Shown: positions 18,562-21,990 of the stretch, in pieces | Layout of the letters: every line of letters begins with the position of its first letter | How positions within the stretch are numbered: the stretch's first letter is position 1 | NCBI RefSeq assembly: GCF_000231445.1 | Contig: NZ_AGFR01000007.1 | Coordinates: 124,001-188,000, forward strand | DNA from: Commensalibacter intestini A911 | GTDB taxonomy: Bacteria; Pseudomonadota; Alphaproteobacteria; Acetobacterales; Acetobacteraceae | Length of the DNA: 64,000 bases | Reading direction: 5' to 3' | Translations under genes and position numbers: made by a program | Notes under the pieces: model-generated | What the model saw: the letters and a program-made list of their open reading frames with translations, nothing else | The model's database searches: none | Told to the model about the DNA's origin: nothing

Positions 18562-18723
18562 TTATAACTGAATTAACGCAAGAACATATAAAATCCCACT
18601 TAACCCAAGCAATGCAGAAAGTAATGCCATATTCCGTTTACTCTGACGGCGTTCAAATTCTTTCTGTTGTTCCATAGTTAGTGAGATTGCAATCGCTTTT
18701 GCTTGTAGTGGTTGCTTTTTCAT
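18562..18723 (-). CDS. Small CoxF-like membrane protein of the ctaB locus
   Basis: This 53-residue protein starts at ATG 18723 after the A/G-rich site aaagggaag. It has a charged N-terminal half ending QQKEFERRQSKRN and one transmembrane helix (about residues 32-51, rich in Leu and Ala). This layout, FERR...RN followed by a helix with LYVLALIQ, matches the short CoxF-type proteins that follow ctaB in alphaproteobacterial cytochrome oxidase operons. It begins 15 bases after the ctaB stop. Its role is unproven; family members are presumed to act in oxidase assembly. Residues 1-17 are less typical, and M17 is a possible alternative start. Confidence 0.72.
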   Translation of the reverse strand: MKKQPLQAKAIAISLTMEQQKEFERRQSKRNMALLSALLGLSGILYVLALIQL

Positions 18724-18738: not shown

Positions 18739-19686
18739 TTAAACAAAATGGTCGATAATCAAAGCAAGAAATAATAAAAATAAATAAATTAACGAAAAAC
18801 GAAAAGAATGTCTGGCAGCTTTATCATTATTCAGACTTAACCCCTCTGGAGTTTGCTTTTCTAATAATACTCTAATTGCCATATAAATAAATCCAGCATT
18901 TAAAAGAATTGCAGTCCCCATATAGATATAAGAAGTATATCCGCAATAAACAGGGGATAAAGAAAATATTGCCAAAATAATAGTATAAATTAAAATCTGC
19001 CAGCGTGTATGCTTTGCCCCTTTAACCACAGGCAACATTGGAATACCAGCCCGGCCATAATCTTTACAAGCATATAAAGCAAGTGACCAAAAGTGCGGTG
19101 GTGTCCATAAAAACGTAATAGAAAATAAAATAATAGGGAATAAATCCATACTCCCCGTGACAGAAGTCCAACCTATTAACGGAGGAAATGCCCCAGCAGC
19201 ACCACCAATAACGATATTCTGTGGTGTAGAGCGCTTTAACCAGATTGTATAAATCACGCTATAAAAAAAGATCGAAAACGCTAAAATCGCCGCAGTTAAA
19301 AAATTCGTTGCCAAGAACATTAAAATGACCGACAACACAGAAACGCCAATCCCATAAATCAACGCATCATCAGGATGAACTCTGCCTGCTGGTAAAGGTC
19401 TTGTAATTGTTCTTTGCATAACCAAATCAATATCACGATCATACCACATATTAATGGCACCAGCCCCACCAGAAGCCATGCAAATACAAAGAATGCTAAT
19501 AAGTGCTAGAACGGGATTAATATGACCAGGTGCAAGAATAATCCCCACAACCCCCGTAAATACGACGAGTGAGATCACTCTTGGTTTTAGAAGAGAAAAC
19601 CAATCTTTGACGTTACTTCCAACTACAGCAGCATCATAACGAATACGCTTTGATCCTACTGCTTCATTAGAGAGTGACTGCCCCAT
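18739..19686 (-). CDS. ctaB: Protoheme IX farnesyltransferase (heme O synthase)
   Basis: CtaB/CyoE is an inner-membrane UbiA-type prenyltransferase that adds a hydroxyethylfarnesyl group to heme b, making heme O. From ATG 19686 it has 315 residues. The frame can be extended to 19737, but that overlaps the upstream gene end. The first Asp-rich site is NMWYDRDIDLVMQRT with RPLPAGRV after it. The second is DYGRAGIPMLPV, and the WxxPP(H)FWSLAL segment is present. About nine transmembrane helices are expected. In acetic acid bacteria heme O serves the bo3 ubiquinol oxidase. Here the gene sits in a remnant cox operon 11 bases behind a degenerate cox1 homologue. Confidence 0.95.
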   Translation of the reverse strand: MGQSLSNEAVGSKRIRYDAAVVGSNVKDWFSLLKPRVISLVVFTGVVGIILAPGHINPVLALISILCICMASGGAGAINMWYDRDIDLVMQRTITRPLPAGRVHPDDALIYGIGVSVLSVILMFLATNFLTAAILAFSIFFYSVIYTIWLKRSTPQNIVIGGAAGAFPPLIGWTSVTGSMDLFPIILFSITFLWTPPHFWSLALYACKDYGRAGIPMLPVVKGAKHTRWQILIYTIILAIFSLSPVYCGYTSYIYMGTAILLNAGFIYMAIRVLLEKQTPEGLSLNNDKAARHSFRFSLIYLFLLFLALIIDHFV

Positions 19687-19697
19687 GAATATAAATC

Positions 19698-21011
19698 CTA
19701 TTTTATGCGAGAAAATGCAGGGGAAGGAAGTTGCCATTCATACGTTGTTGCCCCTGCCCCCCAATAATTATTAGAAACACTGACTTTACTACACAAAGCA
19801 TGCACCAAAACGACTAAGAATGTTAATAAAGACAATCCCATAAAGATCGCACCAATTAATATGGACTGACTTCCCATTGAAAACATATCTAATGTAAAGA
19901 CAACACCGATACAGGTGATTGCAAAATGTAATTTGGCTAAGAATTCTGAATATTGCTTTCCAAGGATTTTCCCCATCCAAAAGTAAAACCCAGCAAATAC
20001 CGCAAATAAAACCCCGTATGAGATACAAGAGTGGATTAAACCAACTTCACTCATAATCCCTTGTAATGGCCAACCAACACTTAAGAGTGCAATAAATCCA
20101 AAAGACCATAAAATTGGTGCAGGATAACGACGCTGCCCAGAGAAGAATAGTTTAAGCGCATAAATGAATAAATATAAAGATAATCCATATAACGCACAGG
20201 CATAAAAAATATGCAGCATTAAGCTTTGCTGTAAGCTAATTAAATGACTGCTAAAAATCATTTTATTCCAAGAAAGCAAGATAATAGATGGCACCAATAC
20301 CATTGCCAAAATGACAGATCGCGTCTGTTTAATACTTTGATCAGAAATCGTGCTAATAATATGAAAAACTAAAGAAATTGCTGGAATAATAAGGATCATT
20401 ACCATTGGATAGGCAAAACTATGCACGGTTTGCTGTATAGCGACATTTAATTGCCCAGCCCCCCAATAATCTTTAGATAACGCAGCCAGCATGACAGAGG
20501 CTGTCGGCAATAATAATGCAGATGCAATCCCTTGTCCCCAAACAAACAACGGTAAAGAAGCATAACTAACATCTAATGCTCTATGATTAATAATCGTAAT
20601 CAACATATTACTTGAAAATATAATCGCTGATACTGACCAAAAAACTAAGCTAAACAAAGAAAATAATGCATTTTGTGGATATAAAAATGTAAGAAAATTA
20701 CAAATGAAACCAACGAACAGACACATAAAAGAAAAAGCATTTAATCCTTTAAATGCCATATCTTTGCTTTTAATTAAAATTGGAACAAACCAAGCCCCTA
20801 GCCCTAACATTAAGGCTGGTTGCAAAACAAAAAACACCATCATTCGAGCATGCGTTTGTGGTAAATTCTGTATAAAATTAATGGTGCTAAATTGGCCTAA
20901 AACAGGAAAAAAAGCACTAAGCTGCACAAATAAAGCCGCAATACCACCGCTAATTCCAGCGAATACCGCTAAAAATAAAGCATTAATTCCAATTTTATAA
21001 TGTGTCTTCAT
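19698..21011 (-). CDS. Degenerate heme-copper oxidase subunit I homologue lacking the catalytic site
   Basis: From ATG 21011 (TTG 21026 is an alternative) the product has 437 residues and about 12 hydrophobic helices. It aligns along its length to CoxA/CtaD: DMAF...LN after helix 2, PLFVWG, FHIIST, LHF near the end, and the C-terminal ATTYEWQLPSP. Both low-spin heme ligands remain (H54 in QTHARMM; H327 in LIHSCIS). The dinuclear centre is gone. The HPEVY motif reads YPMVM (201-205), so the CuB His, the Glu and the cross-linked Tyr are absent. The HH pair is K250-M251, and the high-spin heme His is L325. The stretch before H327 is about 13 residues shorter than in normal enzymes. The frame is open and canonical elsewhere, so this is a maintained gene and not decay. 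No coxB or coxC is next to it. Confidence 0.85.
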   Translation of the reverse strand: MKTHYKIGINALFLAVFAGISGGIAALFVQLSAFFPVLGQFSTINFIQNLPQTHARMMVFFVLQPALMLGLGAWFVPILIKSKDMAFKGLNAFSFMCLFVGFICNFLTFLYPQNALFSLFSLVFWSVSAIIFSSNMLITIINHRALDVSYASLPLFVWGQGIASALLLPTASVMLAALSKDYWGAGQLNVAIQQTVHSFAYPMVMILIIPAISLVFHIISTISDQSIKQTRSVILAMVLVPSIILLSWNKMIFSSHLISLQQSLMLHIFYACALYGLSLYLFIYALKLFFSGQRRYPAPILWSFGFIALLSVGWPLQGIMSEVGLIHSCISYGVLFAVFAGFYFWMGKILGKQYSEFLAKLHFAITCIGVVFTLDMFSMGSQSILIGAIFMGLSLLTFLVVLVHALCSKVSVSNNYWGAGATTYEWQLPSPAFSRIK

Positions 21012-21098: not shown

Positions 21099-21737
21099 TT
21101 ATCGAGGTAGATGCACCAAGGTAAATAATCCAAAAGGGTGCACAGGCTGTAAACTTGCTTTTTTCAACTCTTCAGGAGGAAGCAAAGATTCTATAGAAAA
21201 ATCAGGATGCCATCCTAATGACTTTGACGCTGGAGCCATTACGCGTTCAATATAATAACGCAATCCTTTTTGTGCCAAAAAGTGATTAACAAACAGAATA
21301 TGTCCGCCAGGTTTGACCACACGCTTGAGTTCTGCGAATAAACGATCAGGATGTGGAACAACAGAGGCTACAAACATACCAACCGCAATGTCAAAAGACC
21401 CATCTTCAAAATTTGTTGCCTCTGCATCCATTTCAAATAGATTCTCAACATTCAACAAATTTTGACGCTGAACCCTTTGTCGTGCTTTTTTAAGCATATC
21501 CGTGGATAAATCAATTCCAGTAATACGTTTATCTATATCATAAGAAGGAAGCGCTAATCCTGTACCGACCCCTACTTCTAATACTCTTTGCCCTGGTAAA
21601 CGATTAACTTCTGCAACAGCACAACGCCGCCCAAATGAAGAAATACTTCCAAAAACTGCATCATAGACCATCGCCCATCGACGATAGGCTAACTTAACAG
21701 CATCTGCGCTTAACGCAGTATGAGGTGAAGGAGGCAC
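21099..21737 (-). CDS. pmtA: PmtA-type phosphatidylethanolamine N-methyltransferase
   Basis: This SAM-dependent methyltransferase converts phosphatidylethanolamine towards phosphatidylcholine at the inner membrane. The start is taken as GTG 21737 (212 residues) because GGGAG lies seven bases upstream; the frame could be extended to TTG 21797. The product has AYRRWAMVYDAVFG, SAM motif I LEVGVGTGLALP, GIDLSTDML, and MFVASVVPHPDRLFAELKRV. It continues with GGHILFVNHF and LGWHPDFSIESLL. These blocks match the Rhodobacter-type PmtA family more closely than UbiE. It lies 87 bases upstream of the cox1 relic on the same strand and may share its promoter. Confidence 0.88.
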   Translation of the reverse strand: MPPSPHTALSADAVKLAYRRWAMVYDAVFGSISSFGRRCAVAEVNRLPGQRVLEVGVGTGLALPSYDIDKRITGIDLSTDMLKKARQRVQRQNLLNVENLFEMDAEATNFEDGSFDIAVGMFVASVVPHPDRLFAELKRVVKPGGHILFVNHFLAQKGLRYYIERVMAPASKSLGWHPDFSIESLLPPEELKKASLQPVHPFGLFTLVHLPR

Positions 21738-21744
21738 GTTATTG

Positions 21745-21749
21745 CTCCC
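21745..21749 (-). promoter_or_regulatory. Ribosome binding site deciding the pmtA start
   Basis: On the minus strand GGGAG is followed by seven bases and then GTG at 21737. The longer TTG frame start at 21797 has no comparable site. This supports a GTG start for pmtA. Confidence 0.65.
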
Positions 21750-21990
21750 AATAAACTGTGAACGAATAAGATTATACAAACAAGTGTTATTAACCAAAAA
21801 AGAATAAAAATCTAGTTAGTTTTTCTTTTTTTGCGTTTAATTATAAAATGAAATGCTTTAAAACAACATTCCATAATCTATATTATGTTAAATAAAAGGC
21901 TATTTGTTGTTTATTATAAAACAAATATATACTATAAACACGCTATGAAATAAATAAATAAAACAGGTGAGTTTAGGAGAAATATTTTTT

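Follow-up and report, generated by a model that had tools for sequence, protein, structure and literature searches.

A gene lying directly upstream of the heme O synthase gene ctaB in Commensalibacter intestini A911, here denoted ctaD*, encodes a homologue of cytochrome oxidase subunit I in which the ligands of the dinuclear centre have been replaced and the two histidines of the low-spin heme site have been kept. Comparison with copies from across the bacterial family indicates that CtaD* is very likely a single-heme protein under selection, and we tentatively regard it as a one-heme (b/o-type) pseudo-oxidase, with heme docking for CtaB as its most plausible role. The window, that is, the whole stretch of DNA analysed here (64,000 nucleotides), contains the features collected in Table 1.

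Table 1. Features of the ctaD* locus, with positions numbered along the window
Feature	Position	Strand	Basis
ctaD*, gene of a catalytically dead homologue of cytochrome oxidase subunit I	19698..21011	-	ORF, PF00115, AlphaFold2
H54 codon, low-spin heme axial ligand position, helix II	20850..20852	-	aligned with the helix II His of CtaD
H327 codon, second low-spin heme axial ligand position, helix X	20031..20033	-	at the column of the second AHFHY His of CtaD
ctaB, heme O synthase	18739..19686	-	TIGR01473, 332.9 bits (cut-off 210.3)
PmtA-like methyltransferase gene, upstream of ctaD*	21099..21797	-	NF045882, 166.3 bits (under the cut-off of 390)
53-aa protein after ctaB, one hydrophobic segment, basic N-terminus	18562..18723	-	ORF
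84-aa ORF between gshB and the pmtA-like gene, one hydrophobic segment	21967..22221	+	

The ctaD* frame is intact, opening with an ATG at 21011 and closing with a TAG at 19698 to give 437 aa. The protein matches the Pfam COX1 family (PF00115) with 108.7 bits (E 4.2e-31), above the curated cut-off, and scores 137.5 bits against TIGR02891, the CtaD/CoxA equivalog, for which the cut-off is 670.75. The AlphaFold2 model (pLDDT 90.7, pTM 0.91) has 12 long predicted helices and superposes on COX1, pointing to a 12-helix COX1 fold. Similarity to COX1 starts in helix I, and not from helix 2 onwards as had been proposed from an examination of the DNA by itself (hereafter, the sequence-only reading). Both low-spin heme histidines recognized in that reading, H54 and H327, were recovered by alignment to CtaD and to solved COX1 chains, with the H327 column also matching the low-spin ligand of the latter, and the bis-His site of helices II and X typical of the PF00115 fold family is present. 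By contrast, every one of the CuB ligands, the heme a3 His, the cross-linked Tyr, the K-channel Lys and the D-channel Glu of a functional heme-copper oxidase is missing from the window protein: aligned to a bona fide CtaD of the same bacterial family, it has Y201, K250 and M251 for the CuB ligands, L325 for the a3 His, M205 for the Tyr, L279 for the Lys and M203 for the Glu of the HPE motif. The replacements at the dinuclear centre, the Tyr and the Glu had likewise been noted in the sequence-only reading and are borne out. The same register was obtained from a profile of 49 CtaD* relatives aligned to the solved COX1 chains, and neither the superposed predicted structure nor the independent profile alignments place alternative ligands at the CuB and a3 positions. 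The two Arg that bind the heme propionates and the loop of the Mg site are also gone, losses which could weaken heme binding.

To define the extent of the CtaD* family, a profile built from 14 copies was run over 397 genomes of the bacterial family and again over 41 chosen genomes. The main alignment comprises 63 CtaD* copies from as many genomes and 19 genera, along with 10 CtaD and 2 CyoB sequences; four further copies were found upstream of ctaB, of which three belong to g33, an additional genus, bringing the total to 67 aligned copies from 20 genera. Genus g33 and genome G056 had been candidates for the absence of CtaD*, which was dismissed once their ctaB loci revealed divergent copies. 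Four ctaB loci (L134, L136, L137 and L139) are uninformative on CtaD*, the contig ending by ctaB or the genes being those of a cox operon. One copy (L064, genus g56) is included in the 63-row counts and omitted from the dN/dS set, the loop-length table and a 62-row alignment; the suspicion that it is frameshifted was dropped, its ORF continuing normally.

Despite a mean identity of about 27% among the genus representatives, H54 and H327 are kept in all 63 aligned copies and in the four further ones. Both are also found in seven out of seven named loci, one each from Acetobacter farinalis, Acidomonas methanolica and Brytella acorum and four from Gluconobacter; at least four of the seven represent genomes already counted. 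Compared with CtaD/CoxA, the subunit I of aa3 oxidases, the first and third CuB His, the cross-link Tyr and the K-channel Lys are each present in 0/63 copies and the a3 His in 1/63. The second CuB His and the D-channel Glu each persist in 35/63, suggesting that part of the family keeps remnants of the old centre. The sole copy with a His at the former a3 position (L100 in genome G214, which reads HIHS in helix X) probably has it by chance.

Among the 142 columns that do not vary between the CtaD and CyoB sequences, only five are kept throughout the 63 CtaD* copies, namely, H54, W158, P202, W248 and H327, and the chance of two columns named beforehand both being among these five is 0.001. A CtaD-free alignment of 49 rows has M1, H54, W158, W248 and H327 as its invariants, so P202 is not universal. 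In the 62-row alignment, which is likewise free of CtaD, the spans 54-65 and 327-345 are ungapped in all 62 rows and both histidines are again invariant; together with the agreement of the independent alignments, this rules out that the ligands were misplaced in the alignment. A second invariant set of metal ligands was looked for in the 63 copies and not found. A single family-specific gain is clear, namely, W125 (numbered as in the window protein), a Trp in 58 of the 63 copies versus Ala in the 10 CtaD, which may occupy the room once taken up by the high-spin heme and points to no partner. The family-wide invariance of both axial His strengthens the proposal, already made in the sequence-only reading, of a single-heme b/o protein derived from an oxidase.

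In a quick tree in which long branches were flagged, 37 CtaD* copies form one group apart from CtaD (SH-aLRT 100). A tree of these 37 rows alone has a length of 37.1 substitutions per column, the median column having changed 15 times, and only H54, W158, P202, W248, H327 and Y343 show no change. The former catalytic positions require 18 (CuB1), 13 (CuB2), 20 (CuB3), 17 (a3), 14 (Glu), 15 (Tyr) and 21 (K-channel) steps, indicating that they drift at approximately the median rate of the family, whereas the low-spin ligands do not move. Within genera, NG86 dN/dS medians of CtaD* range from 0.058 to 0.231 in six genera (109 pairs, of which 78 come from g60, one from g31 and two from g54), compared with 0.018-0.079 for ctaB in the same pairs; YN00 medians for the pairs obtained (0.074-0.109) agree with those of NG86. 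The dN of CtaD* is 3.1-4.3 times that of CtaB, that is, CtaD* is under constraint, although by this measure it is held about three to four times more loosely than CtaB. All CtaD* copies in the 63-row alignment are open frames of 408-751 aa from stop to stop; in genome G061, one TGA falls inside the profile match, and the copy's own frame is still 411 aa long. The values far below 1 and the intact ORF agree with the non-decaying frame anticipated by the sequence-only reading, for which dN/dS near 1 among relatives would have signified ordinary decay. With both heme-gripping histidines unchanged in every copy examined, CtaD* is probably functional as a one-heme protein rather than a mere remnant.

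Relative to CtaD, the median lengths of all five N-side loops are unchanged, whereas those on the P-side differ by -4, -21, -11, 0, -13 and -21 residues; by median length, only the periplasmic loops of CtaD* are shortened.

The ctaB ORF of the window is open from 19737, with a likely start at the ATG at 19686, which is preceded by AGGA and lies 11 nt past the ctaD* stop; it is the only heme O synthase match above cut-off in the genome. In all 40 fetched loci, ctaD* has ctaB directly downstream and the pmtA-like gene upstream on the same strand. However, a wider gene block is conserved too, with gshB near in 40/40 loci and tim44 and tldD in 35/40 each (some stretches stop short of the outer genes), so adjacency to ctaB is weak evidence of shared function and was set aside as proof of it. 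Comparison of the window's own neighbours across the 40 loci revealed no obvious redox partner.

Besides CtaD*, the window genome has one COX1 match, in a CyoB-like frame of 670 aa, and its sole COX2 match lies close to this cyoB gene; unlike in the setting of CtaD/CoxA, CtaG/Cox11 was not found in this genome. A single heme A synthase gene is located away from the ctaD* locus. Across the 27 CtaD* genomes tested, heme A synthase (CtaA) is present in 14 and lacking in 13; in the latter, the heme of CtaD* must be B or O, which rules out a general role tied to heme A. Surf1 was found in none of the 27, but in both of the two relatives with a real CtaD. However, its absence is not specific to CtaD*, given that five related genomes without CtaD* lack Surf1 as well.

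No ctaB over the cut-off was detected in 6 of 15 genomes searched (G002, G029, G066, G070, G116 and G210), and in these six the CtaD* profile matched neither CtaD* nor CyoB at 1e-20, with no match at 1e-5 in G029, G066, G070 and G210 either. Five of them (all except G002) are small, at 1.7-2.1 Mb, and heme-copper respiration has seemingly been lost from them altogether. In G001 (locus L138, genus g2), the conserved start of ctaB lies 73 nt past the pmtA stop with no CtaD* in between. This genome represents a natural loss of CtaD* in which ctaB and CyoB-like genes have been retained, indicating that CtaB can do without CtaD*. In G031, ctaB is at a contig edge and there is no COX1 match, which may reflect an assembly gap. 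The COX1 matches of L085 (G007) and L086 (G001) lie in frames of 987 and 984 aa, respectively, perhaps representing CyoB fused to another subunit.

The presence of two His that are invariant exactly at the low-spin positions of a protein that has lost most of its chemistry is best explained by one bound heme. The fold, the residue losses, the invariant histidines, the purifying selection and the loop trimming are read directly from the sequences, and it is from these that we infer heme occupancy of the site. According to a scenario taken from the literature, an ancestor of the acetic acid bacteria swapped its aa3 cytochrome c oxidase for a quinol oxidase. Subunit I would then have been deprived of CuB and heme a3, together with the cross-link Tyr and the K-channel Lys. 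Much of the periplasmic cap, to which subunit II docks, would have gone as well, leaving the fold of 12 helices with the bis-His pocket of a single low-spin heme. In lineages in which Surf1 was not found, CtaD* may take up or retain heme B or O in the membrane beside CtaB and assist its transfer to the bo3/ba3 quinol oxidase. It would then represent a subunit I arrested at the opening stage of assembly, because the low-spin heme is the one inserted first in real COX. A section of PMC9145763 describes this early entry of the low-spin heme into subunit I as well as intermediates without heme a3, which makes a one-heme CtaD* biochemically plausible. The intermediates that accumulate in Rhodobacter sphaeroides without Surf1, as presented there, resemble CtaD* in combining a COX1 fold with a low-spin heme (putative in CtaD*) and no a3; however, they are trapped intermediates of a normal gene, whereas in CtaD* this state would be encoded outright, by a conserved gene of its own.

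If CtaD* is indeed a single-heme protein under selection, heme handling together with CtaB appears about evenly poised, with a slight tilt in its favour. The sequence-only reading had left electron transfer, heme handling and sensing open as roles. We favour, by inference, heme holding or transfer with CtaB over electron transfer or sensing, and these over a heme-free scaffold. A more specific version, a dedicated one-heme relay in which CtaD* would hand heme B or O from CtaB to the incoming quinol oxidase and so do the job that Surf1 does elsewhere, strikes us as conceivable but rather doubtful. The proposed task, in which a modified heme would be held briefly next to the enzyme that makes it and then handed on, would liken CtaD* to Surf1 in speculative functional terms only; the two belong to unrelated families and Surf1 was found in none of the 27 CtaD* genomes tested.

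Several other readings have to be weighed against heme docking. CtaD* could be a membrane electron-transfer cytochrome b, operating between quinol and cytochrome c or in heme A/O chemistry, or a sensor of redox state or oxygen, with the low-spin heme at the periplasmic face. We consider this rather unlikely: a bis-His low-spin heme is a classical electron carrier, which in COX accepts electrons en route to heme a3, the shortened periplasmic loops would expose the heme edge, and the purifying selection speaks for this reading too, but the window's own neighbours, compared across the 40 loci, include no obvious redox partner, no second set of metal ligands is invariant in the 63 copies, and the variant concerned with heme A synthesis is excluded in the 13 genomes without CtaA. 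A heme-free structural partner stabilizing CtaB, as suggested by Degli Esposti 2023 in a part of PMC10715153, would fit the constant adjacency of the two genes, the 11-nt gap in the window and the six genomes in which neither a heme O synthase over cut-off nor CtaD* was matched. Nevertheless, this proposal seems improbable to us, for it leaves unexplained why precisely the two axial His are fixed when most CtaD-invariant positions drift, its premise that all metal-binding residues are lost fails in the Acetobacter copy named, that of A. farinalis, and G001 has ctaB without CtaD*.

It is very improbable that the two His bind something other than heme, for example a metal ion or a different porphyrin intermediate, or serve packing only. 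Packing constraints do exist, W158, P202 and W248 being likewise unchanged throughout the 63 copies, but packing would hardly demand His in every one of them, and the columns concerned are exactly those of the two low-spin heme ligands in an otherwise COX1-like fold. Least credible of all is slow decay of a functionless aa3 relic. In Matsutani's work of 2014, the loss of ctaD function was reportedly put down to accumulated mutations, and both the loss of the catalytic residues and the faster evolution of CtaD* relative to CtaB could be read in this way. However, decay is ruled out by the dN/dS medians (0.06-0.23 in six genera) and the 63 open frames, and the axial His have stood unchanged over 37 substitutions per column.

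Few enzymes have been studied as thoroughly as the heme-copper oxidases, and a COX1 homologue that is conserved but has the low-spin site only would constitute a pseudoenzyme, a non-catalytic, one-heme branch of their superfamily. It would amount to a long mutagenesis experiment of nature in which catalysis is gone and a handful of positions is fixed, including exactly the two low-spin ligands. It also makes testable how heme reaches the terminal oxidase after CtaB.

On the question of novelty, which the sequence-only reading had left undecided, the gene itself proves to be known, its heme site apparently not. A passage in PMC10715153, following Matsutani 2014, places a 'deranged COX1-like protein' beside CtaB in Acetobacter and states that it lacks all conserved metal-binding residues. 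By family and by position next to ctaB, this is the same gene; however, at odds with the description given there, the A. farinalis copy (L157), which can be aligned to the window gene, keeps both low-spin ligands, as do all other copies in the alignments. On this key point, the sequences of the copies examined contradict the printed loss, correcting the published view in organisms responsible for vinegar and other oxidative fermentations. We found no description of a conserved low-spin site in the CtaD* family in the open-licence literature, where searches for an oxidase homologue with the low-spin heme alone, one of them narrow, brought up nothing relevant either. The conservation of the heme site, how far it extends and the pattern of loop shortening hence appear to be new. 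As far as the relevant sections go, consecutive locus tags for ctaB and ctaD are given for Acetobacter pasteurianus (PMC5158111), ctaB and ctaA of the same species were reportedly shown to be functional (PMC6915089), and Bombella intestini is described as devoid of cytochrome c oxidase genes (PMC5112900).

Two small ORFs accompany the locus. For the 53-aa protein encoded after ctaB, no Pfam match over the cut-off was obtained, and a similar short hydrophobic ORF follows ctaB in 28 of the 40 loci, according to a crude scan in which at least one hit (L123) looks spurious. It perhaps corresponds to the short ORF that separates ctaB from ctaG in cox operons, in which case this gene would be the third relic of a cox operon, the locus being a three-gene relic. 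The 84-aa ORF on the opposite strand had no family match over the cut-off, and a similar ORF is found in 23 of the 40 loci.
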